A DNA stretch of 10,483 nucleotides from Nitrospira sp. (GTDB lineage Bacteria; Nitrospirota; Nitrospiria; Nitrospirales; Nitrospiraceae): assembly GCA_030456405.1 (NCBI GenBank), contig JAKDNQ010000064.1:1-10483 (forward strand), given 5' to 3'. Positions 1 to 10,483 of this stretch are shown here, piece after piece. A program made the position numbers and the translations under genes. How positions within the stretch are numbered: position 1 is the stretch's first letter; each line of letters begins with the position of its first letter. Below the pieces are notes generated by a model. That model was not told the DNA's origin, did not search any database, and worked only from the letters and a program-made list of their open reading frames with translations.

Positions 1-1
1 T

Positions 2-394
2 CCGGAGATGAAGACCCAGCCCCCACCCCCTCCCGCGTTAGGCCGTGGCACCGTGAGGGACTTGTTCGACAAGGTGTTCTGGCCAGCGTATCCACGGAAG
101 GAACACAAAAAACAGGCGTGGATCGTGTTCGAGCTGCTGGGGCCTGGCGCCGATCTTTTGCGCGAGATCATGGCCTTTCTTGAATCTGAAAAAACGGATT
201 GGGAGAACGGGCGGACCTGTCCGCTACCAGACAACTTTCTGAAAGCGCGGGAATGGAAACACGTCAGACCGCTACCGCCAAAGGTCAAGCCGGGCGGAAT
301 AATCGTGTCCGATGCGATCGTGCCCGAACCGAACGAGGCCTTAACGAGTAACGGAGCGTTTCTCAACAAGGGAAGGACGTATCCGCGTGATTAA
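2..394 (+). CDS. Phage replication-type protein, C-terminal part (probably 5' partial)
   Basis: The reading frame is open to the left edge. The first ATG (position 8) sits directly against a GGAG with no spacer, and the sequence after it is a proline-rich linker, so this is more likely the C-terminal end of a longer protein than a complete 128-residue gene. After the linker comes a segment, about residues 20-85 counted from that ATG, with the pattern F-x-x-x-FW-x-x-YPRK-x-x-x-KK-x-A-W and later a proline/asparagine-containing stretch ending in REW. From family knowledge, this F..FW..YPRK...K..A...W pattern is common at the C-terminus of phage replication or replisome-organizer proteins, after an N-terminal winged helix. 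I infer a role in initiating replication of the element. The gene overlaps the next by 8 bases. Confidence 0.6.
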   Translation, partial: PEMKTQPPPPPALGRGTVRDLFDKVFWPAYPRKEHKKQAWIVFELLGPGADLLREIMAFLESEKTDWENGRTCPLPDNFLKAREWKHVRPLPPKVKPGGIIVSDAIVPEPNEALTSNGAFLNKGRTYPRD

Positions 395-638
395 CACAGG
401 CGGGGCAGACCGGGAGCGAGAGAAGCCGCTCATTCGGCTAGCTCGACACGGCGAGCCGGTGACGGCGGCGCTGCTATTTCCAGCGTCGCCCCGCCCTCAA
501 AATACAGAAGTCGGTGGGTTCCTCAGTAGCCGCGAGGACCGACGCCAACGGAAAATCTGGCGGCGCGAAGATCGATCGAACGATAAGCAGATCGGGAAGC
601 TGTTGACGCAACTCGGAAACCGTAGGGGGCAACCGTGA
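387..638 (+). CDS. Small hypothetical protein between replication gene and TerL
   Basis: An 83-residue frame starts with GTG at 387 inside the end of the replication gene. It ends with a TGA at 636-638 that overlaps the GTG start of TerL (GTGA). This interlocking on both sides supports a translated, coupled gene. I do not recognise the family. The product is hydrophilic and rich in Arg, with a charged, probably helical C-terminal half (around residues 48-80, many Arg, Asp, Glu, Lys). Directly upstream of TerL is where the small terminase subunit usually sits, so a TerS-like DNA-recognition role is possible, but I see no clear helix-turn-helix and the protein is short for a TerS. It could also be an unrelated small accessory protein. 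Confidence 0.5.
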   Translation: MINTGGADREREKPLIRLARHGEPVTAALLFPASPRPQNTEVGGFLSSREDRRQRKIWRREDRSNDKQIGKLLTQLGNRRGQP

Positions 639-2062
639 TAAATCAAATCGGAAATGTTCAGACGCACAAGCGTCTTAACATCGTCGAAGCTCTGAAGCAT
701 CCCCAGTTATTCGGGGCGCTTCCTGCCTTCAAGAACTTGGAGAGCTGGAAAGCGTGGATCGTCGTGATTAAGTGCTTGCAAGGTTTGCCCCTCGACTCAG
801 AGGCCGAGTTGAAACTGTTCCGGCAATGTACGGGTCGCTATCACTACAACCCGCCGAAGGGCGGCTTTCCTGAGATGGTAATTATTGTCGGCGTGCAGTC
901 GGGAAAGTCTTCCATTGCCGGCGTGCTCCTCGCGTCGGCAACCTTGACCGGGAAAGCTGGACGGTATGCGGTGGGAGTCTGTCAAGATCTCCGGGGTTCC
1001 ATGCGGGTCCTGCTCCGCTATGCCCGCATGCCCTTCGAGACGCTAGACAACTTCAAAGGGGAAGTGGTCCGTTCGACCGCCGACCTGATGGAGTTACGCA
1101 ACGGGGTCTTTCTGTGCGCGTACCCGAACAACTCGGAAGCCATGCGAGGTCTTGAGGCTGAGTTCGTCGTGATCGATGAACTCGCCTTCTTTGTGACTAG
1201 CGACGGTCGCCCGAATGATCGTGAAATGTTGCGTGTGGCCCGTGGGCGCGTGGCGAACTCAGGCGGAAAGGTCGTGATCATCAGTAGCCCCTATGCACAA
1301 AATGGTTGCCTGTACGACCTACACCGGAAGCATTACGGTCAGGAAGATTCTTCAACGCTTGTGTGGCAGGCCTCGGCCTTCCTCATGAACCCTACCCTCT
1401 CGACAAACTATCTCGCCCGCATGGAAGCCGACGATCCTGAAGCGTACCGCTCGGAAGTCTTGGGTGAGTTTCGGAGCGGCACGTCCACATTGTTCGACAG
1501 TGACGGGCTACAGGCCTGTGTGGATACTGGCATCCGTGAACGACCGTTTCAACCGGGCGTTCAGCATACGGCAAGCATCGACAGTGCGAGCGGATCGGGG
1601 CAAGATTCCTTTACGCTAACCATCGTGCATCCCGAAGGAGATTGCGTGGTGGTCGATCTCGTCCGGGCCTGGCGTCCACCGTTTAACCCATCCGGCGTGA
1701 TTGCTGAAATATCCGACCTGCTGAAAGCCTACGGCATTCGAACGCTTTCCGGTGATAAATATGCCCCTGGCTTTGTCCAGGAACTCTTTCGTTCACATGG
1801 AATCGACTACCAATTCGCCGACCAATCCACATCGGATGCATACCTCGCTCTGGTCAGCATTGTTAATTCCGGGCAAGTGACGCTCCTGGATCATCCAGAA
1901 TTATTGCGGGAACTGCGCGGCCTGGAGAGACGCCGAGGATCGAGCGGGCGGGACCGGGCCGATCACAGGTCAGGGAGTCACGATGACCTTTGTGCTAGTG
2001 CGGCTTGCGCGATTGTTGGCGCAAAAAAACCGCAGATGGTCCCCGGCGTTTTTGTTTTCTAA
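635..2062 (+). CDS. Phage terminase large subunit (TerL), ATPase plus nuclease
   Basis: A 475-residue protein of typical TerL length. TerL packages DNA: its N-terminal ATPase drives DNA into the prohead through the portal, and its RNase H-like C-terminal nuclease cuts the concatemer. Visible motifs are Walker A GVQSGKS (86-92), Walker B FVVIDE (177-182, with D181 and the catalytic E182), the coupling motif VIISSP (214-219), and nuclease acidic residues at D316 (ASID), D374 (SGDKYAPG) and the C-terminal HDD (449-451) after a basic stretch. All expected catalytic groups are present, so it should be active. The GTG start at 635 overlaps the upstream stop (GTGA) and has a G-rich ribosome site (AGGGGG) about 6 bases upstream. 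Oddly, the next genes are a micro-ORF and the capsid rather than a portal, the usual neighbour and packaging partner. Confidence 0.93.
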   Translation: MINQIGNVQTHKRLNIVEALKHPQLFGALPAFKNLESWKAWIVVIKCLQGLPLDSEAELKLFRQCTGRYHYNPPKGGFPEMVIIVGVQSGKSSIAGVLLASATLTGKAGRYAVGVCQDLRGSMRVLLRYARMPFETLDNFKGEVVRSTADLMELRNGVFLCAYPNNSEAMRGLEAEFVVIDELAFFVTSDGRPNDREMLRVARGRVANSGGKVVIISSPYAQNGCLYDLHRKHYGQEDSSTLVWQASAFLMNPTLSTNYLARMEADDPEAYRSEVLGEFRSGTSTLFDSDGLQACVDTGIRERPFQPGVQHTASIDSASGSGQDSFTLTIVHPEGDCVVVDLVRAWRPPFNPSGVIAEISDLLKAYGIRTLSGDKYAPGFVQELFRSHGIDYQFADQSTSDAYLALVSIVNSGQVTLLDHPELLRELRGLERRRGSSGRDRADHRSGSHDDLCASAACAIVGAKKPQMVPGVFVF

Positions 2063-2074
2063 GGAACTCGACTG

Positions 2075-2188
2075 ATGGGACAGCTTGACCGCAGCAACGT
2101 TGCAGAGGTTAGGGGCCTTGGCTCCAATGACTTCAATGCCTCGTCGCTGTGGAAAGGCCTCCCACAACTCGCCTACGGAGCGCAGTAG
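2075..2188 (+). CDS. 37-codon micro-ORF between TerL and capsid genes
   Basis: An ATG at 2075 is preceded by AAGGA at 2061-2065 with a 9-base spacer, and the frame runs 37 codons to TAG at 2186-2188. The predicted peptide starts MGQLDRSNVAEV and ends LAYGAQ; it has no transmembrane segment and I do not recognise it. It occupies the gap where the portal, protease and scaffold genes of a complete phage would be. It could be a real small protein (for example a head-assembly accessory), the remnant of a deleted structural gene, or a chance frame. The good ribosome site and the tight fit between TerL and the capsid gene favour translation, but the length gives little statistical support. Confidence 0.4.
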   Translation: MGQLDRSNVAEVRGLGSNDFNASSLWKGLPQLAYGAQ

Positions 2189-2246
2189 GAATCAGTAGCG
2201 GTGAAATCCACACACCATGGAGAGGAAAAACAAAGAGGAAACAAAA

Positions 2247-3440
2247 ATGTCAGAAGCAATTTTAGGACAAATCAAAAACGGTGTACAAAGCATGCAGGCC
2301 AACGAGAAAATCCAGGACGGACGGCTGGATACGCTGGAAACGTACTTACGCGAGCGGAAGATGCTGGCGATAGGGGGAGGTTCCTCCTCTGCCGAGAGCG
2401 ATGGATTTAAATGGGGCAAGGCCTTTGAAGTCGCGCTGTATGGGAGGAATGGGCAACTCTCACAGAACAAGGGCCTCATGGACTCGCATGAGTTCAAGGT
2501 GATGTCGCAGTCTACCCAAAAAGCTCTTGATACCGGGACCGGAGGAGCTGGTGGGGGATTCGTGATTCCCCAGCAATATGTCAGCAATCTCATTGAGCGC
2601 TTGTATCCGAGCTCAGCCGTGATCGAAAGCGGAGCCACGGTGATGAAGAATCTGACGGGCTCGCCGGTCGTTATGCCGAAGCAGACGGCGGGCGGTACGG
2701 TCTCATGGATCGGGCAGAATAGCACGATTTCGCTTTCTGACCCGGCCTTCGGGCAAGTCCAGCTCACGCCTAAGACGATGGCAATTCGCATGCAGATTTC
2801 CAATTTGGCGAATATGCTGTCCAGTCCCCACTTTGAGGAAATTCTGCGCCGTGATCTCGCGCGGACAATTGCCCTCGAACTCGACCGTGTAGCGTTGAGG
2901 GGTTCCGGTGCCTCCAATCAACCGTTGGGGCTCAATGGGGTCGCAGGGATTTCAACCTATGCGATCGGCACGAACGGCGGGCCGCTCGATGCCGATACCC
3001 TCTACGAAGTGGACAATAAGTTGTTTGCCGCGAACAGCCACTTCGGCAAGCTCGGCTTCATTTCCCATCCATCCGCGTACAGAAAATTGAAGAAGCAACG
3101 TGTGCCTAACTTTTCAGGGGACACCGGAGGAAGCTATCTCTTCCTGCCGATTCTCTCCGATGAAAAGCTTAGTCAAGCATTAGGTTATAGCGTCAAGTCC
3201 ACGACGCAGCTTCCGGTGAACTTGACCAAGGGCACCTCGACCGATTGCACAGAGTTGTATTTCGGCAATTGGGAAGAATTGCTGATTGGCATTTGGGGAG
3301 ATTTGGAGATCCTGGCAACGAACATCGGCGGCAATGCGTGGACCCAAAACGCCATTGAAATCCGCGTGATCCTCAACGTGGACATTCAGGTTCGACATCC
3401 CGAATCGTTCTGTTTAGTGAACGACGTGCGCACGGCTTAA
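2247..3440 (+). CDS. HK97-fold major capsid protein
   Basis: A 397-residue major capsid protein, assembling into the icosahedral shell. I chose the ATG at 2247 because GAGGA (2235-2239) lies 7 bases upstream; an in-frame ATG at 2217 would add 10 residues but has no ribosome site. The first 45 residues are charged and helical (delta-domain or scaffold-like, coiled-coil tendency). Then comes a Gly-rich turn and the capsid-family signature GGGFVIP (about 102-108) followed by helical and beta segments (SSAVIESGA, VMPKQTAGGTVSW), and the family-typical RGSGASNQPLGLNG (218-231). The C-terminal part has the usual FGNWEELLIGIWGDLEI strand pattern. HK97-type capsids often have their delta domain removed by a protease encoded just upstream; no protease gene is visible here, so maturation may be cleavage-free or rely on a helper. 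Confidence 0.92.
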   Translation: MSEAILGQIKNGVQSMQANEKIQDGRLDTLETYLRERKMLAIGGGSSSAESDGFKWGKAFEVALYGRNGQLSQNKGLMDSHEFKVMSQSTQKALDTGTGGAGGGFVIPQQYVSNLIERLYPSSAVIESGATVMKNLTGSPVVMPKQTAGGTVSWIGQNSTISLSDPAFGQVQLTPKTMAIRMQISNLANMLSSPHFEEILRRDLARTIALELDRVALRGSGASNQPLGLNGVAGISTYAIGTNGGPLDADTLYEVDNKLFAANSHFGKLGFISHPSAYRKLKKQRVPNFSGDTGGSYLFLPILSDEKLSQALGYSVKSTTQLPVNLTKGTSTDCTELYFGNWEELLIGIWGDLEILATNIGGNAWTQNAIEIRVILNVDIQVRHPESFCLVNDVRTA

Positions 3441-3455
3441 TTTTTTGTGAACGAA

Positions 3456-3485
3456 GGGAGCGGGGGCCGCACGGTCTCCGCTCCC
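3456..3485 (+). promoter_or_regulatory. Strong 13-bp hairpin after the capsid gene
   Basis: The arm GGGAGCGGGGGCC (3456-3468) pairs with GGTCTCCGCTCCC (3473-3485) around the tetraloop GCAC, with two G-U wobbles. It begins 16 bases after the capsid stop codon and is followed by GAAAGGGA, the ribosome site of the next gene, not by a U-tract. It is therefore not a normal intrinsic terminator on this strand. Likely roles are protecting the 3' end of capsid mRNA or reducing expression of downstream genes relative to the capsid. Confidence 0.65.
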
Positions 3486-3496
3486 GAAAGGGAATC

Positions 3497-3811
3497 ATGC
3501 AATCTCAAGACAAAGTGCGCTGGGATAATTTCATTGCTACGTATACGAATCGTCAAGTGTTCGAGGAATGGCAGGACTCTCTAGCCCATTGCGAGGCGTG
3601 GAAGGCCCGGCATAGTGAACGCGCACTCCCTCAGCCGGTCATGGAGGTGTTGGCGTACATGTGCTCAGCGTATCGGTACGTGCGACCCCTGCTGCTCGAT
3701 CAGAGCTGTTGGGACCAACCGGCACAGCCGGAGATGACGAATTTAATTTTGTCGCTGGCGCGAAAGGTCCGGCGTGAAGTGCCGGCCGTTGAACCTCTTG
3801 GCCACGCCTAA
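3497..3811 (+). CDS. Hypothetical protein downstream of capsid gene
   Basis: A 104-residue protein I do not recognise. The ATG at 3497 follows AAAGGGA (3488-3494) at a short, workable distance. The sequence is mainly helical, rich in aromatic residues (several Trp and Tyr, for example FEEWQDSLAHCEAWKARH and YMCSAYRYVRPLLLD), with three Cys, no signal peptide and no clear membrane segment. Its position after the capsid gene would fit a head-completion or decoration protein in a phage, but nothing in the sequence proves this. It could equally belong to the regulatory and integration half of the element, whose genes follow with 13-base and shorter spacings. Confidence 0.65.
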   Translation: MQSQDKVRWDNFIATYTNRQVFEEWQDSLAHCEAWKARHSERALPQPVMEVLAYMCSAYRYVRPLLLDQSCWDQPAQPEMTNLILSLARKVRREVPAVEPLGHA

Positions 3812-3824
3812 CCAAGGAGCCTCA

Positions 3825-3998
3825 ATGACAACCAGAGAAGCCTATAACCGATGGTACTGGAAATCTCGAAAGGGCAGGAAGACGCAGCAGCGATATCGGC
3901 ATAGCGCCAAGGGGCAAGCGACAAGGGAACGGGCGACCGCCAAGCAGGCTGTGAAACGGGCCGCGAACCGACCTGGAAGGAAACAGGTGAGACCATGA
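3825..3998 (+). CDS. Small, highly basic 13-residue-repeat protein
   Basis: A 57-residue protein starting at the ATG at 3825, 7 bases after AAGGAG (3814-3818 region), a better start than in-frame codons overlapping the previous gene. About a third of its residues are Lys or Arg. Two successive 13-residue units fit Y-x-x-S-x-K-G-(R/Q)-x4-R: YWKSRKGRKTQQR then YRHSAKGQATRER; a third, degenerate unit begins ATAKQAVKRAANR. From memory, similar Y..S.KGR repeats occur in short uncharacterised phage proteins; I know no established function. The charge suggests nucleic-acid binding, for example to packaged DNA or RNA. It overlaps the next gene by 4 bases (ATGA), so the two are probably translationally coupled. 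Confidence 0.7.
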   Translation: MTTREAYNRWYWKSRKGRKTQQRYRHSAKGQATRERATAKQAVKRAANRPGRKQVRP

Positions 3999-4315
3999 TG
4001 GAATTGTTGCAAGACTTAAAACGCAAGGTGAACGAACTGCCGAGAGCGCAGATGCCGAACCTGATCGGCTTGTTATCGATCCTGTCGGGTGAGGCGCAGA
4101 TGCGGTTGCTCACGATGGAATCAGTTCCTCCTCCTCAAGAAGATCGGTTGCTCATGGTGGCGGAAGCCGCTGAGAAGCTCGGCATGACCAAGGATTATTT
4201 ATATCGACGCGCAGACACGTTCGACTTTACCGTGCGGGTCGGGGTCAGACGGCTTCGTTTTTCCTTGAATGGCATTGAGAACTATATTGCACGGCAAGGC
4301 GTGTCACTGTCTTGA
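3995..4315 (+). CDS. Excisionase/AlpA-like winged-helix DNA-binding protein
   Basis: A 106-residue protein with two parts. Residues 1-45 form a helical region with LPRAQMPNLIGLLSILSGEA, a pattern I have seen in front of similar DNA-binding domains of mobile elements. Residues about 51-100 form a MerR/excisionase-type domain: RLLMVAEAAEKLGMTKDYLY (HTH, 51-70), a strand with FTVRVGVRRLRFS (78-90), then a helix NGIENYIARQ. Such proteins act as excisionases (bending attachment-site DNA and biasing the integrase to excision) or as AlpA-type activators of element genes. Two ATG codons are adjacent at 3995 and 3998; GGTGA at 3986-3990 fits the second slightly better. Its stop codon overlaps the -35 box of the downstream promoter, so it is well placed to influence integrase expression. 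Confidence 0.8.
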   Translation: MMELLQDLKRKVNELPRAQMPNLIGLLSILSGEAQMRLLTMESVPPPQEDRLLMVAEAAEKLGMTKDYLYRRADTFDFTVRVGVRRLRFSLNGIENYIARQGVSLS

Positions 4316-4341
4316 CATCATGGTATCAACCCGTCTATCAT
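4312..4341 (+). promoter_or_regulatory. Sigma70-type promoter for the ribbon-helix-helix/integrase pair
   Basis: A perfect -35 TTGACA (4312-4317) and a -10 TATCAT (4336-4341) are separated by 18 bases. The -35 includes the TGA stop codon of the winged-helix gene. Transcription would start near 4348, about 20 bases before the ATG at 4368. The elements were found by eye. Confidence 0.65.
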
Positions 4342-4344
4342 CCC

Positions 4345-4365
4345 GCCCTCACACACAGGGAGGGC
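4345..4365 (+). promoter_or_regulatory. Inverted repeat at start site and ribosome site (possible operator)
   Basis: GCCCTC (4345-4350) and GAGGGC (4360-4365) form a perfect 6-bp inverted repeat around ACACACAGG. The right half contains the Shine-Dalgarno of the downstream gene, and the left half overlaps the predicted transcription start. As DNA it could be the operator of the ribbon-helix-helix protein made from this transcript; as RNA it could hide the ribosome site if transcription starts a few bases earlier than predicted. Confidence 0.4.
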
Positions 4366-4367
4366 CT

Positions 4368-4511
4368 ATGAAAACGACCGTGAATTTACCAGATGCTATT
4401 TGGCGGGCCGCGAAAGTGCGGGCGATTGACGAAGGGACGGATCTAGGGCGGGTTGTGCTTGCGGCACTCACGCAATACTTAAAACAGAAGCCGACCAAGC
4501 GGGAGGGCTAA
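4368..4511 (+). CDS. Ribbon-helix-helix (CopG/Arc-type) small DNA-binding protein
   Basis: A 47-residue protein starting at the ATG at 4368 behind GGGAGGG (4358-4364). The upstream extension of the frame is rejected because it overlaps the winged-helix gene and the promoter. The sequence has the ribbon-helix-helix layout: a strand MKTTVNLPD (1-9), helix A IWRAAKVRAIDEG (11-23), a turn, and helix B DLGRVVLAALTQYLKQ (25-40), then a basic tail. Such proteins bind operators as dimers through the paired strands. A CopG-like repressor controlling its own promoter and the integrase is the simplest reading, since the integrase starts 3 bases after its stop. It is also the shape of many antitoxins, but no toxin gene is adjacent, so I do not call a toxin-antitoxin pair. 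Confidence 0.75.
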   Translation: MKTTVNLPDAIWRAAKVRAIDEGTDLGRVVLAALTQYLKQKPTKREG

Positions 4512-4514
4512 GCC

Positions 4515-5621
4515 ATGCGCGTTAAAGGCGTCAAGGGACGGATCTTTCCACGTGGGAACCGATGGTGGATTGCCTATTATGAAAAAACCGCTGGGGGCAA
4601 AAGCCTCGAAACGCGGGAACCGGGAGGCGCGACGGAAAAGGAAGCTCGGAACAAACTGAAGCATCGGCAGAAAGAACTGGGCGCTCACGATCTCGGTGTC
4701 TATTCCTTCACCGGACCGGAAGCGGAACGAATCACCGTAGGGGATTTGCTGATCTCCGTGCTCGCCCAATATGAATCTGAACGAAGGGATCTGAAGAAGT
4801 CAGTGTCTCACATGAAGCACCTGCGAGCCTTCTTCGGGGGTGAGCGGGCCGTGCAGGTCAACGCGCTCCGTGTGCAGCAGTATATTGCCGTCCGACGCAG
4901 GGCGAAGCAGCGCAACGGGAAGCCGTATGCCGACGCGACGATCTACCGAGAACTTCATATTTTGCAGCGGGCCTTTTCATTGGCCGTCCAGCAGAAGCGG
5001 CTTTCCGCCTTTCATACGCCAGAGTTTCCCGCGCTCTCAGAAGAGAATACCCGTGAAGGCTTCGCAGGAAAAGGCGATGTGGATACGATTCTTGCTCACC
5101 TGAAGGACGGCGCGGTCCGTGATTATGTGGCCTGGGCCTTTTGGACTGGGATGCGACGCGGGGAGATCAAGCAATTGACCTGGGCGGCCTTCGACCGGGA
5201 AACCTCAGCCCTGACATTGCCAAAACGCAGCACCAAGACCAAGAAGCCGCGCAAGCTGGTCCTTGAGGGGGTCTATCGTGAGATCATCAAGCGCCGACTG
5301 CTCGACCGTGTCCTTGGATGCGAATTAATCTTCCATCGGCACGGAAAGCCCATGGGCGACTTTCGGAAGGCATGGAAGAGTGCCAGCAAGAAGGCGGGGG
5401 TGCCTGAACTCCTCTTTCACGATCTCCGACGAACCGCTTTGCGCAATCTGATCCGGGCGGGCGTGGATCAAACCGTGGCTAAGAAGATTTCAGGCCACAA
5501 GACCGACGCGGTATTTGAGCGTTACAATATTACGAGCGATGAGGATTTACGGGAGGCTATGCAGAAACAGGAAGCCTACGTGACAGCCCTACCCGTACAC
5601 CCACGCCAGAAGACCGGCTGA
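4515..5621 (+). CDS. int: Tyrosine recombinase, site-specific phage-type integrase
   Basis: A 368-residue integrase that inserts and removes the element at its attachment site. The N-terminal part (1-65: GRIFPRGNRWWIAYYEKTAGG..., an arm-binding AP2-like strand region) is followed by a helical core-binding SAM-like domain (about 70-165) and the catalytic domain (about 180-345). Catalytic residues are R214 in WTGMRRGEI, a lysine in the beta-hairpin STKTKKPRK (239-247), H302-x-x-R305 in HDLRRTALRNLI, H328 in ISGHKT and nucleophile Y337 in ERYNIT. All are in place, so the enzyme looks intact. The ATG at 4515 has GGAGGG about 10 bases upstream and lies 3 bases after the ribbon-helix-helix gene, implying one operon. 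The gene points toward the tRNA-Lys gene 143 bases downstream, the usual arrangement for tRNA-targeting integrases. Confidence 0.94.
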   Translation: MRVKGVKGRIFPRGNRWWIAYYEKTAGGKSLETREPGGATEKEARNKLKHRQKELGAHDLGVYSFTGPEAERITVGDLLISVLAQYESERRDLKKSVSHMKHLRAFFGGERAVQVNALRVQQYIAVRRRAKQRNGKPYADATIYRELHILQRAFSLAVQQKRLSAFHTPEFPALSEENTREGFAGKGDVDTILAHLKDGAVRDYVAWAFWTGMRRGEIKQLTWAAFDRETSALTLPKRSTKTKKPRKLVLEGVYREIIKRRLLDRVLGCELIFHRHGKPMGDFRKAWKSASKKAGVPELLFHDLRRTALRNLIRAGVDQTVAKKISGHKTDAVFERYNITSDEDLREAMQKQEAYVTALPVHPRQKTG

Positions 5622-5643
5622 AAAACACGGACAAAACACGGAC
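5622..5643 (+). repeat. Tandem 11-bp repeat right after integrase
   Basis: AAAACACGGAC occurs twice head to tail (5622-5632 and 5633-5643), starting on the base after the integrase stop codon. Its position between the integrase and the attachment region makes integrase or excisionase arm-site binding plausible; this is inferred only from location. Confidence 0.55.
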
Positions 5644-5651
5644 AATTGAGA

Positions 5652-5764
5652 GCTTTTCAGGGTACGATATATTGCATAACATATTGATTTATGATGAGAA
5701 TACTGACAGAGTACGGAAATTGGCCGCTTTTCAGAGTACTACATGCATAACCTATTGATTTATG
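5652..5764 (+). repeat. Pair of imperfect direct repeats at the attachment region
   Basis: Copy 1 (5652-5693) and copy 2 (5726-5764) share GCTTTTCAGrGTAC, then TGCATAAC, then TATTGATTTATG after one variable base. The spacer between the first two blocks is 7 bases in copy 1 and 4 in copy 2. The downstream blocks are 71 bp apart. Copy 2 ends exactly at the encoded CCA of tRNA-Lys. Each copy contains CATAA and TTATG as a 5-bp inverted repeat, the layout of a recombinase core site. A third CAGAGTAC lies between them (5707-5714). I infer integrase-binding or attachment DNA; the true crossover point cannot be fixed without the left end or an empty site. Confidence 0.6.
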
Positions 5765-5840
5765 TGGTGAGCCGGCTGGGACTCGAACCCAGGACCCTCG
5801 CCTTAAAAGGGCGATGCTCTACCAACTGAGCTACCGGCTC
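5765..5840 (-). tRNA. tRNA-Lys (anticodon UUU)
   Basis: On the minus strand this folds into a full 76-nt cloverleaf: 7-bp acceptor GAGCCGG/CCGGCTC, D arm GCTC/GAGC, anticodon arm TCGCC/GGCGA with loop CTTTTAA (anticodon TTT), 5-base variable region, T arm CTGGG/CCCAG with loop TTCGAGT, discriminator A and an encoded CCA (5765-5767). Its 3' end faces the element, so it is the likely integration target and is intact after integration. No U-rich terminator follows its 3' end; the element's repeats start at once. A possible -10 box (TAGAAT, minus strand, 5864-5859) lies 18 bases upstream, but I see no good -35. Confidence 0.97.
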
Positions 5841-5911
5841 ACCGAGCGAAGAGCGCGGATTCTACCACCGACGCTCTGCCTATGCCTAGACCACACATCT
5901 TGGACAAGCCC

Positions 5912-5997
5912 GGTCTGTCTGGTCTATTTGGTCCGTCTCGTCCGTTTGGTTGAACGAAACTAACCAGATGAACCAGATAGACCAGATTGACCTGATC
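5912..5997. repeat. Inverted arrays of 9-bp repeats (long imperfect palindrome)
   Basis: The left array has four 9-bp units and a partial: GGTCTGTCT, GGTCTATTT, GGTCCGTCT, CGTCCGTTT, GGTT (5912-5951). After a 10-base spacer comes the right array AACCAGATG, AACCAGATA, GACCAGATT, GACCTGATC (5962-5997). The arrays are reverse complements of each other in consensus: aligned without gaps, 25 of 36 positions pair as Watson-Crick and 4 more as G-U in plus-sense RNA. It starts 11 bases beyond the purA stop codon and would sit in purA's 3' untranslated RNA. This 168-base gap between tRNA-Lys and purA holds no gene. Possible roles are mRNA end stabilisation, transcription slowing or a dispersed mobile repeat. 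Confidence 0.8.
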
Positions 5998-6008
5998 CCA
6001 GAGAACAT

Positions 6009-7454
<1,446 letters not shown>

Positions 7455-8243
7455 TCAATCGCCGAAAAAGCCCTCCTTGATCTCTCGGCATAGACCGCTC
7501 AGATCGGGAAAGATCAGCGACTCACTGATGCCTGAAATCGCCAGTTCTCTATGGACTGTCGCAACGTGGGCGCGTGGAATCATCATCTTCTGTAGGTAGG
7601 GAAAATCTTTCCCTTTTGGGTGTGCCAGCCGATCCAAGGCAGCTCGTTCGTTGCCATGAATCGTGAACACACCACGCTGCGCGGCGATTCGCTGGCTGGC
7701 GTGAATCGGCGTAATGGCAAGCGGCAACTTCCCCTTCAGTCGCTGCCCGGAGCGGAGAGGAGCGTGCCCCTTGGCTCGCGGATCGTCTGCGGGGAAGAGC
7801 ACATACTCACCGAACGTCTGACGGTTGAGCCACCACGGATTCATTGCCCATACTGCGGCATCGGCGTCACCGGCATGGTCTCGAACAGCGAAGTAGAGAG
7901 CGATCAAGGAACTTTCCGTCCAGTCTAAGAGCCTTGTCCTCAGGCCGTAGTGCTGCATCAGGAATAGCCACTCCCAATCTGTTACTGGGAGCCGCTCCAG
8001 ATAGGTCGGCGCTCGAAGGCGGAGATTCTCCAGCAGCGTTGCCTCATTGTAGTATTCGGATCCAATACTTTGGCTCGAACTGGAGGGCCGATACCAGCCC
8101 GGCTCCAACGACCAAGCGGCATTACCATGGCCGCGGAACCAAGGTTGGAGGTACCAGTCCGCTCCCTTCGGCGTCCATTCGTCGACAAGCTGCTCAACCG
8201 CCTTGACGAATCTTGACAGGCTTGTGATTGGTTTCAGCACCAT
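7455..8243 (-). CDS. FRG-domain protein
   Basis: A 262-residue protein with the FRG domain, named after the motif WFRGHG seen here at 35-40. After it come SLEPGWYR (45-52), a helical segment, and the highly conserved QHYGLRTRLLDWTESSLIALYFAV (97-120), then RIAAQRGVFTIHG (185-197) and the C-terminal ISGISESLIFPDLSGLCREI (237-255). These are the blocks expected of the family, so the gene looks complete. No signal peptide or membrane segment is visible. The biochemical function of FRG proteins is, to my knowledge, not well established; many lie in variable or defence-rich regions, but nothing next to this gene marks a defence system. The ATG at 8243 has GGGGGAG just upstream. It lies 132 bases upstream of purA on the same strand and has its own possible promoter. 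Confidence 0.85.
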   Translation of the reverse strand: MVLKPITSLSRFVKAVEQLVDEWTPKGADWYLQPWFRGHGNAAWSLEPGWYRPSSSSQSIGSEYYNEATLLENLRLRAPTYLERLPVTDWEWLFLMQHYGLRTRLLDWTESSLIALYFAVRDHAGDADAAVWAMNPWWLNRQTFGEYVLFPADDPRAKGHAPLRSGQRLKGKLPLAITPIHASQRIAAQRGVFTIHGNERAALDRLAHPKGKDFPYLQKMMIPRAHVATVHRELAISGISESLIFPDLSGLCREIKEGFFGD

Positions 8244-8354
8244 GGCTCCCCCGTGTCTAAGGTTGTGTAGATCACCCGCTACCGAAAACAGTCCGGTGGA
8301 TTGGCAAATGAGGCCGCAAAGTTATGAACTTGACAGACCGAACGCTGGCGCGTG

Positions 8355-8383
8355 ATTCTTGCCCTTGTTCAATCACTTGTCAA
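8355..8383 (-). promoter_or_regulatory. Possible promoter of the FRG-domain gene
   Basis: On the minus strand a perfect -35 TTGACA (8383-8378) is 17 bases from AAGAAT (8360-8355, four of six -10 matches). Transcription would start near 8348, about 105 bases before the FRG start codon. I see no clear hairpin in that leader. Confidence 0.45.
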
Positions 8384-8589
8384 CGTTCTCCTTCGCGCCG
8401 CACATGCCATTCACGACGGCTCGATTCTCATCTGATCAAGGTGAGCCTGGCTTCCGTGTGAAGGGGGAAACGCAGGAGGGAACGAGTGTGTCTGATCGTC
8501 GCGTAGGAGATACGAATCAGGCTTCATGAGGAGCGCCCATTGGGAGATGGCGCCTCGAATCATCATGACTCATCCAGGTGCTCCGCTTG

Positions 8590-8598
8590 TGTTATAGT
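8590..8598 (+). promoter_or_regulatory. Extended -10 promoter of the lipoprotein/UspA operon
   Basis: TGTTATAGT (8590-8598) fits an extended -10 (TGn followed by TATAGT). No strong -35 is present at 17 bases, as is common for this promoter type. A 5-bp inverted repeat GCTCC (8580-8584) / GGAGC (8599-8603) surrounds it and could be an operator. Transcription would start near 8605, giving a leader of about 44 bases. Confidence 0.45.
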
Positions 8599-8648
8599 GG
8601 AGCGAACGATCAAGGGAGCCATTCCCTTCCACACCGAGGAGGTAATGA

Positions 8649-9029
8649 ATGAAACAAATCGCTGTTTGGACCATCATACCGGTACTCATGTTGATAGCGT
8701 CAGGCTGCACGCTCAAGGGGACCGTTAAACAGATCACGGATACCACCTCCAACATTACCGGCACAACTTCCGGCCATGCCTGGTGGAGTGAAGACGGACT
8801 CTTGCTCCCGGAGCATAAGGCTATTGCGTTTTCGAAGTATAACGAAGCGAACTTGGAGCAGGACCTCGCGCGCGGACAGGGGGAATATGTCACGTCCCTC
8901 GCTACCCTCCTGGGAGTCCCACGCGACCAGCAGCTGGTCTTTCACGCAAAGGCGCAGGGGGCGTTCGATACCCTGACCACACCTGATCACGAGGCCCAGA
9001 TTCACCGGTTGCGGACACTGACTCACTGA
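8649..9029 (+). CDS. DUF3015-like lipoprotein
   Basis: A 126-residue exported lipoprotein. The N-terminus MKQIAVWTIIPVLMLIASGC is a short type II signal peptide with lipobox IASGC and lipidated Cys20, so the mature protein is membrane-anchored, in the periplasm or outer membrane. The mature part has a Thr/Ser-rich stretch (30-41), then FSKYNEANLEQDLARGQGEYVTSLATLLGV (61-90). The LxxDLARGxGEYxxSLAxLLG pattern resembles DUF3015 proteins, whose function is unknown; this match is from memory and the protein is short for that family. The ATG at 8649 was chosen over the out-of-frame ATG at 8645; GGAGGT ends 5 bases upstream. It is followed after 13 bases by the UspA gene, probably in one transcript. 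Confidence 0.78.
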   Translation: MKQIAVWTIIPVLMLIASGCTLKGTVKQITDTTSNITGTTSGHAWWSEDGLLLPEHKAIAFSKYNEANLEQDLARGQGEYVTSLATLLGVPRDQQLVFHAKAQGAFDTLTTPDHEAQIHRLRTLTH

Positions 9030-9042
9030 TAACGAGACGACG

Positions 9043-9909
9043 ATGGGCACACCGATGCCCCCGTTTCACCAAATTTTTCACCCCACAGATTTCTCTACCG
9101 CAGACCAGGCGGCGTTTGCCCATGCGTTGAAGCTCACCTGCCTCGTCCAGGGAGAGCTGACGATGATGCATGTCGATCATGCGGTCGAACGCCAAGCCTT
9201 CGAGGATTTCCCCCGCATCCGGCCACTCCTCGCTCGCTGGGGAGTGTTACCGGAAGGCAGCTCGAAGGACGATGTCGCGATGTTGGGCGTCCAAATTAAA
9301 CGCGTACGCACCGTCTCAGACGATACCCCGGGCGCCATCCTCCAACACTTGACGACGCATCCCACAGAGCTCTTGGTGCTGTCCACTCACCAGCATGAAG
9401 GCCTCGCCCGTCTCACCCACCGCTCAGTAGCGGAACCCGTGGCTCGCGGCACCCACGCGAAGACGCTCTTTGTCCCAGCCGGTGTCGAAGGGTTCGTCTC
9501 AGCGGAGACGGGCCGCACCAACCTGACCAGGGTATTGATTCCGGTCGCCTATACGCCTCACCCCCAACCAGCTATCGACCTTGCCGTGAAACTCGCGAGC
9601 ATACTGGGCAGCAAGGAGGTCTTATTCGAACTGGTACGTCTGAAGCAGGACGCCGATTTCCCGACCTGTACTCTGCCAGAACGAGAGGGCTGGTCGTGGA
9701 ATACCATCGTTGCGAAGGGCGATCCGGTCGAGTGGATCTTAGCGGCAGGAGCGGATTTCAATGTCGATCTGATTGTGATGATGACTGAAGGACATACCAG
9801 CCTGATCGACCTGATTCGGGGAAGCACCACCGAACGGGTGGTGCGTGGCACAGGCTGCCCCTTGCTTACTATTCCTGCTCGACCAGATTTACCCGTCCTC
9901 GCTCCATAG
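9043..9909 (+). CDS. Tandem universal stress protein (UspA family)
   Basis: A 288-residue cytoplasmic protein with two UspA domains. Domain 1 covers about 8-147 (IFHPTDFSTADQAAFAHALKL at the start; ELLVLSTHQHEG and a VARGTHAKTLFVP end). Domain 2 covers about 161-278 (RVLIPVAYTPHPQPAIDLAVKLA; DLIVMMTEGHTSL; RGSTTERVVRGTGCPLLTIP). The nucleotide-binding pattern ending in a Gly-Ser step (G260-S261-T-T-E-R-V-V-R) is clear in domain 2, while in domain 1 the equivalent is THRSVAEPVARG, lacking the Gly. So domain 2 probably binds ATP and domain 1 may not. UspA proteins bind nucleotides and support survival under stress; the exact role is unknown. The ATG at 9043 has only a weak ribosome site (GAGACG), consistent with coupling to the lipoprotein gene. 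The 3' end overlaps the convergent helicase gene by 41 bases. Confidence 0.92.
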   Translation: MGTPMPPFHQIFHPTDFSTADQAAFAHALKLTCLVQGELTMMHVDHAVERQAFEDFPRIRPLLARWGVLPEGSSKDDVAMLGVQIKRVRTVSDDTPGAILQHLTTHPTELLVLSTHQHEGLARLTHRSVAEPVARGTHAKTLFVPAGVEGFVSAETGRTNLTRVLIPVAYTPHPQPAIDLAVKLASILGSKEVLFELVRLKQDADFPTCTLPEREGWSWNTIVAKGDPVEWILAAGADFNVDLIVMMTEGHTSLIDLIRGSTTERVVRGTGCPLLTIPARPDLPVLAP

Positions 9910-10483
9910 CCTGCGCGTTCGGTCTGTCCGAAGCCTCCCGCCCTAACTCCGTTCGCACCACTGCCCCCTCACGAAACACGACAAAGTTCGACGGCACCGC
10001 AGGCACGCGCGGACCCGGCAAGATGATGCCTGCAAGATTCAACGGATCGCTGGCAGATAATTTGATGTCGTGAGAAGCAGCGCCAGACTCATTCCGTTTT
10101 CTTCCTGCCCGTAACGATTCAATCGCTTCCGGCAACGCAAATTGCTCGCCGGTAAAGCCGCTCACAAATCTTCCCCCACGGATCTCGCCTTGTAGCTCCA
10201 TCCGGCGATACTGCACCAGCAAATCACGCCAGGACTGCATCAGAGATTCACGTGCCAGCAGATCACGGAAGACAACGCCGTAGCGTCGCAACAATTGACG
10301 AGCGATCGTAGGTGAAGGGTGAGGGGTAAGGGGTAAGGGGGTAAGTGCGCCTGATCCAGAACTGATGGCTGAAGGCTGATGGCTGACAGCTTGCCGGAGG
10401 AGTGACCAGCGCCCGGCGGTATGGCGCGGCCGACGAGACCGCTCCCGTCCTTGTGCGCGGCGGCGGCGTGGGTCCATGAGCGC
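9869..10483 (-). CDS. Lhr-type DEAD/H helicase, C-terminal part (5' partial at window edge)
   Basis: The frame is open through the right edge; the first visible Met (10477) is internal because in-frame codons continue beyond it. This is the C-terminal 'DEAD/H associated' region of Lhr-like helicases: TAGRWSLL, then RQLLRRYGVVFRDLLARES, a W-RDLL...RRMELQGEIRGGRFVSGFTGEQFALPEA block, and SASDPLNLAGIILPGPRVPA near the end. The helicase motifs themselves are outside the window. Large Lhr proteins are ATP-dependent nucleic-acid helicases linked to DNA repair or RNA handling. Between GRWSLL and RQLLRRYG a Ser/Pro/Thr-rich stretch of about 28 residues (AVSHQPSAISSG... to ...PHPSPT) looks unlike the family and is encoded by tandem repeats. 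The stop at 9869 lies inside the UspA gene. Confidence 0.88.
   Translation of the reverse strand, partial: ALMDPRRRRAQGRERSRRPRHTAGRWSLLRQAVSHQPSAISSGSGALTPLPLTPHPSPTIARQLLRRYGVVFRDLLARESLMQSWRDLLVQYRRMELQGEIRGGRFVSGFTGEQFALPEAIESLRAGRKRNESGAASHDIKLSASDPLNLAGIILPGPRVPAVPSNFVVFREGAVVRTELGREASDRPNAQAMERGRVNLVEQE
10311..10341. repeat. GGGGTAA-type tandem repeat, G-quadruplex-prone, inside helicase gene
   Basis: On the plus strand four G-runs occur with loops of three: GGG (10317-10319), GGGG (10323-10326), GGGG (10330-10333) and GGGGG (10337-10341), separated by TGA, TAA and TAA. The unit is GGGGTAA with period 7. This satisfies the usual G-quadruplex pattern on the template strand of the helicase gene. 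In the helicase frame it encodes Pro/Leu/Thr-rich residues. Confidence 0.75.
10360..10387. repeat. GGCTGAN 7-bp tandem repeat inside helicase gene
   Basis: GGCTGAA (10367-10373), GGCTGAT (10374-10380) and GGCTGAC (10381-10387) are head to tail, preceded by a partial unit ACTGAT. In the helicase frame this gives SHQPSAIS-like residues. Similar GGCTGAT arrays are, from memory, dispersed in the genomes of some environmental bacteria including Nitrospira. Confidence 0.65.

Follow-up and report, generated by a model that had tools for sequence, protein, structure and literature searches.

A putative integrative satellite at a tRNA-Lys gene with its own terminase and HK97-type capsid protein and no recognised portal

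Known phage satellites either use the particle of their helper phage or, in the case of the capsid-forming phage-inducible chromosomal islands (cf-PICIs), build a whole head. In PMC10690885 the definition of a cf-PICI requires a complete set of head genes, namely those for the major capsid protein (MCP), protease, portal, connectors, the small and large terminase subunits (TerS and TerL) and HNH. Here we analyse a 10,483-nucleotide stretch of DNA from a Nitrospira sp. assembly (contig JAKDNQ010000064.1, positions 1 to 10,483; hereafter the window), which begins inside an integrated element and shows its right-hand 5.8 kb, the left end lying beyond the contig. We think it likely that this is part of a helper-dependent integrative satellite inserted at tRNA-Lys in a host that is probably Nitrospira-like, and that it would package itself while replacing one structural protein of its helper. 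The initial annotation of the window had proposed a satellite with its own motor and shell protein and with portal and tail from a helper, which is the best-supported reading here, the use of a helper being what we infer; for its other suggestion, a new packaging arrangement, we obtained no positive support.

Classical PICIs and the Staphylococcus aureus pathogenicity islands (SaPIs) combine an integrase, an excisionase-like helix-turn-helix (HTH) protein, replication genes and a TerS-like protein in about 10-15 kb, and rely on the TerL and the capsid of their helper. The loci described below resemble them in gene set and size but carry a TerL of their own, by which they were found. The TerS and capsid-resizing strategies of these islands are treated in PMC10690885. 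With cf-PICIs the present element shares its own TerL, its own MCP and a tail that would come from the helper, but it differs in lacking portal and protease, both of which the helper would supply; since own MCP and TerL are present while portal and protease are absent from the visible window and from its complete relative L245, these elements fall outside the cf-PICI definition. The MulchRoom and MiniFlayer satellites of Streptomyces are likewise small and carry TerL and MCP, one of them with a tyrosine integrase and an HTH protein, but as described in PMC10690885 they include a portal, a scaffold and a head-to-tail adapter. Virion-encapsidated integrative mobile elements (VEIMEs) and tycheposons are also proposed satellites, from marine bacteria, named in PMC10187409 and in PMC11389934, a 2024 review that lists further proposed satellites as well; they were compared by name alone, and overlap with them is possible. 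Siphophage head modules (L145, L011, L230 and L246) have MCPs 43-56% identical to those of the window and of two relatives, L232 and L245, but place portal and protease directly before the MCP, and L011, L145 and L230 show no match to the present TerL family. The portal and tail genes that accompany TerL and MCP in a tailed prophage (Caudoviricetes) occur neither in the visible window nor in L245. At title and abstract level, in a literature search that covered few subscription papers, no description of the present satellite family was found.

In the window, TerL is followed by a 37-codon open reading frame (ORF), the HK97 capsid gene, HTH and ribbon-helix-helix (RHH) genes, the integrase and tRNA-Lys (Table 1), which is the order originally read from the letters, with the winged-helix gene of that reading at the HTH position. 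The integrase ends 2.2 kb downstream of the capsid gene, with the HTH and RHH genes between them. No portal, protease or tail gene was recognised in the visible part with Pfam, PHROGs or a portal profile, no head-tail connector was recognised in the window with PHROGs, and HNH had no match among nine window ORFs or ten scanned ORFs of L245. No direct-repeat pair flanks TerL inside the window.

Both proteins appear intact. TerL residues K91, E182, D316, D374, D450 and D451 are invariant across 31 aligned homologues, in agreement with the earlier claim of intact motifs; judging from the motifs familiar in terminases, we take them to form Walker A, Walker B and the nuclease centre. The TerL family profile matches T4 gp17 in the PDB (E 2e-8). 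At E <= 0.001, TerL has at least 1081 homologues, a lower bound with 7998 candidates scored, and the capsid has 667; details of homologues are drawn from the best 120 of each list. For the capsid gene, the start at 2247 is favoured over that at 2217, because AGAGG stands just upstream of this ATG and the database copy P0121 has 397 aa. The AlphaFold model (396 residues, mean predicted local distance difference test score, pLDDT, 79.7) is of HK97 type, with an N-terminal helix and low confidence at residues 37-50, and the capsid of siphophage R4C (8gta) is both the only solved match by sequence and the top Foldseek match by fold. Encapsulins are HK97-fold shell proteins without a linked packaging terminase; since they rank high by fold, such an identity was considered, and it was rejected on the adjoining TerL and the sequence match to the phage MCP 8gta.

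The pairing of the two genes recurs in close relatives. Among the matches listed, the closest TerL and capsid homologues come from sources named Nitrospira or Nitrospirae, and TerL homologues also from sources named Acidobacteria and Vicinamibacterales. One Nitrospira genome encodes TerL as OJF51_004866 and the capsid as OJF51_004868, with one locus tag between them, as in the window. When 120 TerL entries were compared with 119 capsid entries, seven coincided exactly in the size of their longest contig, one being the window itself and six foreign, whereas 100 shifted controls averaged 0.85 coincidences and never exceeded 3; most of these foreign pairs can thus be expected to reflect genuine linkage, with individual pairs possibly due to chance. 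Because of the many TerL and capsid homologues, the invariant motif residues and the paired locus tags in Nitrospira, the gene set of the window is more than a chance assembly.

The TerL family extends well beyond these relatives. Nine TerL loci (L001-L009) came from a contig scan, the records bearing the titles Acidobacteria, Vicinamibacteria, Planctomycetota and Deltaproteobacteria, and a search of 396 Acidobacteriota genomes gave TerL matches in 36, with 26 of the 30 strongest free of internal stops; 20 regions were retrieved. All-against-all gene comparison of 33 loci returned TerL (32), integrase (21), a TerS-like gene (18), HTH and replication genes as recurrent. By its family profile the TerS-like gene is present in 31 of 40 TerL loci, whereas neither the window nor any of the seven phage control loci gave a match. 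The identity of this gene as TerS rests on position and on a weak similarity of fold: Foldseek gave no significant match, HK97 TerS came first in the PDB (E 2.3, prob 0.41), and four of the five best viral matches are annotated as terminase small subunits (E 0.46-1.0). The 83-aa ORF of the window (387-638) was tried as a TerS and is unsupported, the TerS-like profile having no match in the window at E <= 0.1.

Direct repeats 8.6-15.0 kb apart enclose 14 of the 36 TerL loci tested, namely eight of 30 in a first set (L001, L124, L126, L129, L133, L139, L142 and L143; 10.6-14.7 kb) and all six in a second (L240-L245; 8.6-15.0 kb). The repeats are exact except for one mismatch in L129, and the boundary of L124 is ambiguous, two left copies being compatible with it. 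ARAGORN places one repeat copy in a tRNA gene for nine of the 14 (L001, L126, L129, L139, L142, L240, L242, L244 and L245), and the repeat of L133 is 26 bp long and not tRNA-like. These relatives are thus discrete elements with integrase and attachment sites, of which the window displays only the integrase-tRNA side, and the family core appears to consist of integrase, excisionase-like HTH, replication genes, TerS-like protein and TerL. L242 and L243 (G454:C3) lie 42 kb apart with equal TerL scores, each bounded by a different tRNA-like repeat. The Komagataeibacter plasmid pKNA06 (L091) carries TerL with DUF2213 and a VapE protein; this plasmid is circular and contains the TerL-DUF2213-ParA unit largely twice, with the second TerL in pieces, and represents the family in plasmid form. 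In IMG/VR, neither TerL nor the capsid had a match when scanned as a single sequence, pattern-limited scans gave two loci of the TerL type, one at 24%, and in 50,697 phage records TerL identity was at most 28%, with no match covering 80% of TerL; by these comparisons known viruses rarely carry a TerL of this type.

No portal was recognised at any of the TerL loci. A profile built from six phage portals, which covers one portal type, matched none of 34 TerL loci and none of six more (0 of 40, several being short contigs). The same profile matched all seven phage control loci, four of them used in building it and three independent (L230, L231 and L233), and also prophages L212 and L246-L248. PF04860 occurs in 4/28 and 1/6 genomes or records, always on a contig other than that of the TerL element, and PF05065 capsids occur in 7/28 genomes, none near the family TerL where positions were comparable. 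Two pools of translated ORFs scanned with Pfam (100 ORFs from five bounded elements, 66 from three more, some ORFs overlapping longer ones having been excluded, among them the L124 integrase) contained integrase, HTH, DnaB/primase-type replication and HicAB families, together with a single phage minor tail family, a single HK97-gp10-like family and an S78 protease family with two members. The best 25 of 40 and 25 of 29 families included neither a portal nor a capsid; the ordering was by members and then by E-value, so that a portal or capsid better than about E 1.5e-4 and 5e-3, respectively, would show. The pooled PHROGs scan shows the best 25 of 97 families, from which the absence of a portal is not provable.

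Single virion genes, by contrast with the core, come and go. PHROGs identified tape measure and neck proteins in L142, a protease in L133 and L143, a tail protein in L125, and protease and neck in L010; L133 and L143 thus have the protease and no capsid of this type. The capsid itself is optional in the family, being found at three of 40 TerL loci (the window, L232 and L245), and the virion gene set is incomplete, as in other satellites. In several capsid-less elements, proteins of about 190-250 aa and coiled-coil appearance follow TerL (L126:7774-8520, L142:7773-8420, L143:7173-7733 and L002:7200-7874). The three that were scanned gave no informative family match; they could be scaffolds that redirect the helper head.

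The combination of terminase and capsid was met again in two further loci. When relatives of G008 were searched for the capsid, 10 of 391 genomes had hits at E <= 1e-40, and five regions were taken. Three of them (L230, L231 and L233) are head modules of phages in which portal and protease are both present, and L234, a contig of 4 kb, encodes protease and capsid. The fifth, L232 (a 7,992 bp contig), encodes a TerS-like protein, the capsid, an HTH protein and TerL, and neither the portal nor the protease profile matched it. A TerL search around G716 gave hits in six of 198 genomes at E <= 1e-40, one of which, G835, carries L245, a complete 13.4 kb element between 46-bp tRNA-Arg repeats. Its genes are, in order, a regulator-like ORF, HTH_17, a primase-helicase-like protein, a TerS-like protein, the capsid (PF05065, E 4e-42), TerL in two pieces, a 191-aa ORF, an Mrr-type nuclease, a 208-aa ORF, DUF3800, a 193-aa ORF and the integrase; no portal, protease or tail gene was recognised among them. 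The initial annotation had proposed that portal, protease and tail genes lying further left in this element would mark it as an ordinary or deleted prophage; the portal profile matched none of the family's 40 loci, and L245 is complete without any recognised member of such a module. Its call for an element traced to both attachment sites was answered by L245, that is, in a relative with an interrupted TerL and not in the window itself, and the conserved relatives whose lack it would have counted against the satellite exist as a recurrent TerL family, but with a varying gene order, which in L245 and L232 reads TerS-MCP-TerL. The Mrr-type restriction nuclease and the DUF3800 protein of L245 (L245:10956-14117) look like cargo, for which an anti-phage function is possible.

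We then asked how the capsids relate to one another and to those of resident phages. In a tree of 68 capsids, seven TerL-linked ones (the window, P0126, P0128, P0145, P0147, P0164 and P0167, a status assigned from matching longest-contig sizes) fall within a group of 50 rows, of which 43 are unlabelled, separate from nine phage capsids with branch support 100/100. L232 (in a 71-row tree) and L245 (in a 42-row tree of a smaller set) place on the phage side, and the TerL-linked capsids formed one group in 0 of 200 bootstrap trees. This suggests two or three separate captures of a capsid, although the well-supported branches alone would be compatible with one. An approximately unbiased (AU) test (p 1e-90 against one clade) was set aside, as the constrained group omits unlabelled neighbours that are possibly satellites too. 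Besides L245, G835 has three contigs with a portal, the longest being L246, a prophage with portal, protease and MCP in succession and no TerL in the stretch examined; the MCPs of L245 and L246 are 56.0% identical over 377 aa. G373 holds four TerL elements of the family (L131, L134, L138 and L143) and one prophage, L212, with portal, protease and capsid. Between L143 and L212 the protease is 58% identical (146 aa) and a tape-measure-like protein 33% (654 aa), and L212 is the best match of both L143 proteins within the set compared. Resident prophages with homologous virion genes are therefore candidate helpers in two genomes, the case for mobilisation being circumstantial.

Gene content, motif residues, recurrence, repeat-bounded relatives without a recognised portal and resident prophages with homologous genes are what we observed, and from them we envision a helper-dependent cycle. 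Growth of a tailed helper phage would induce the satellite to excise and replicate; the satellite TerL, with TerS where present, would select and package satellite DNA; the satellite capsid protein would replace the helper capsid or co-assemble with it into a shell; and the helper would provide portal, maturation protease, connectors and tail for transfer. Several observations weigh against this reading. Of the 40 TerL loci read as DNA, 37 lack this type of capsid, and 22 of the 30 first-set loci, some being short contigs, have no flanking repeat. The element to the left of position 1 is unseen, and no TerS was recognised in the window. The capsid retains an N-terminal region of the type that a protease would be expected to remove, and no protease was found. 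In the close relatives of the window, linkage rests on contig sizes and locus tags, with no such DNA read. L245 has a broken TerL frame and L232 a short integrase frame, so that both other capsid-bearing copies may be decaying. Finally, L231, a phage of another genome, is as near to the L245 MCP (56.2%) as L246, so that the comparison indicates a type of phage and not a proven satellite-helper pair.

These points can be set against three other explanations. A window capsid that acts on the helper, co-assembling with its MCP into small or aborted heads as a factor of interference or resizing (the role for which Sid, CpmB and TcaP are named examples), would fit an optional capsid, the small size of the repeat-bounded elements, and the closeness of the L245 and L232 MCPs to those of portal-bearing phages; but the window MCP is a full-length HK97-type protein whose group makes up 50 of the 68 tree capsids with well conserved columns, beyond what an inhibitor would appear to need, and we regard this role as unlikely. 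Quite improbable, to our mind, is a prophage deleted for portal, protease and tail whose remaining genes were retained by chance. The broken TerL of L245, the stop inside four of the 30 strongest TerL matches and the lone virion genes, which without neighbours resemble remnants, would agree with such decay, but 14 repeat-bounded elements of similar size have the family core in common, TerL with MCP and without portal occurs in more than one capsid lineage, and in phages the related capsids are accompanied by a different TerL, the TerL profile having matched none of the 80 capsid-selected loci L011-L090 (many of which are too short to contain a TerL).

The left part of the element does lie outside the contig, and it could house the portal, protease and connectors of an ordinary or cf-PICI-like element. 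We give this slightly less credence still: the visible sequence opens with a replication gene, in L245 the replication gene stands ahead of TerS-MCP-TerL with only regulators further left, and the portal profile was negative at every TerL locus.

The remaining features of the window are collected in Table 1. The two homologues of the 104-aa accessory protein give no functional clue, and a 60-codon frame at 3816-3995 had no family match in the Pfam and PHROGs scans. The two repeat copies of about 40 bp beside tRNA-Lys may be integrase arm sites or the trace of a second insertion. The element has a GC content of 0.555, the host part one of 0.574. Beyond tRNA-Lys, a purA-like host gene was read by eye on the minus strand, and next to it a 262-aa gene (7455-8243) resembles, also by eye, an FRG-domain protein.

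Table 1. Features of the element and its tRNA end in the window
Feature	Position	Strand	Evidence or remark
Replication-initiation/primosomal-like protein, C-terminal part	2..394	+	PHROG_9327 E 1e-4; PHROG_9474, PHROG_270 E 0.003-0.008; 5' end beyond contig
83-aa ORF	387..638	+	Overlaps both neighbours; occupies position of TerS-like gene in relatives
TerL, 475 aa	635..2062	+	PHROG_2 E 7e-22; Pfam Terminase_6N E 4e-4, just under cut-off
37-codon ORF	2075..2188	+	AAGGA upstream; between TerL and capsid genes
HK97-fold major capsid protein, 397 aa	2247..3440	+	PF05065 E 5.5e-33 (longer start); PHROG_617 E 2.9e-47
Accessory protein, 104 aa	3497..3811	+	Two other homologues found, 71% and 63% identity, both 104 aa
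Lysine/arginine-rich ORF, 57 aa	3825..3998	+	Sequence
Excisionase / MerR-like HTH regulator	3995..4315	+	PHROG_66 E 2e-5; HTH_17 E 0.0017, under cut-off
Ribbon-helix-helix (Arc-like) regulator	4368..4511	+	PHROG_6506 E 7e-7
Tyrosine integrase	4515..5621	+	PF00589 E 1e-19; PHROG_1 E 7e-46
Two near-identical ~40-bp copies, 73 bp apart	5652-5693 and 5725-5764	.	By eye; second copy ends at tRNA-Lys 3' end
Host tRNA-Lys(ttt), presumed attachment site	5765..5840	-	ARAGORN

Taken at the level of the family, the comparisons add the view that the capsid may be one of a number of parts that can be exchanged around a core of TerS and TerL. The broader proposition is that of an unnamed TerS-TerL satellite family, spread over several phyla and a few plasmids and lacking a portal, which captures single virion genes (capsid, protease, neck or tape measure) from its own helpers, each element in this way re-specifying one step of helper virion assembly, with the capsid taken independently by the Nitrospira-type lineage of the window and at least one other; for this, belief and doubt seem to us evenly balanced. 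Because the elements scarcely appear in the virus collections searched, their numbers in environmental bacteria may be underestimated. If the satellite reading is true, a motor with one exchangeable structural protein and no portal would make the swapping of virion parts between unrelated elements testable, as it would the docking of a satellite TerL on a helper portal and a stepwise origin of capsid-making satellites.

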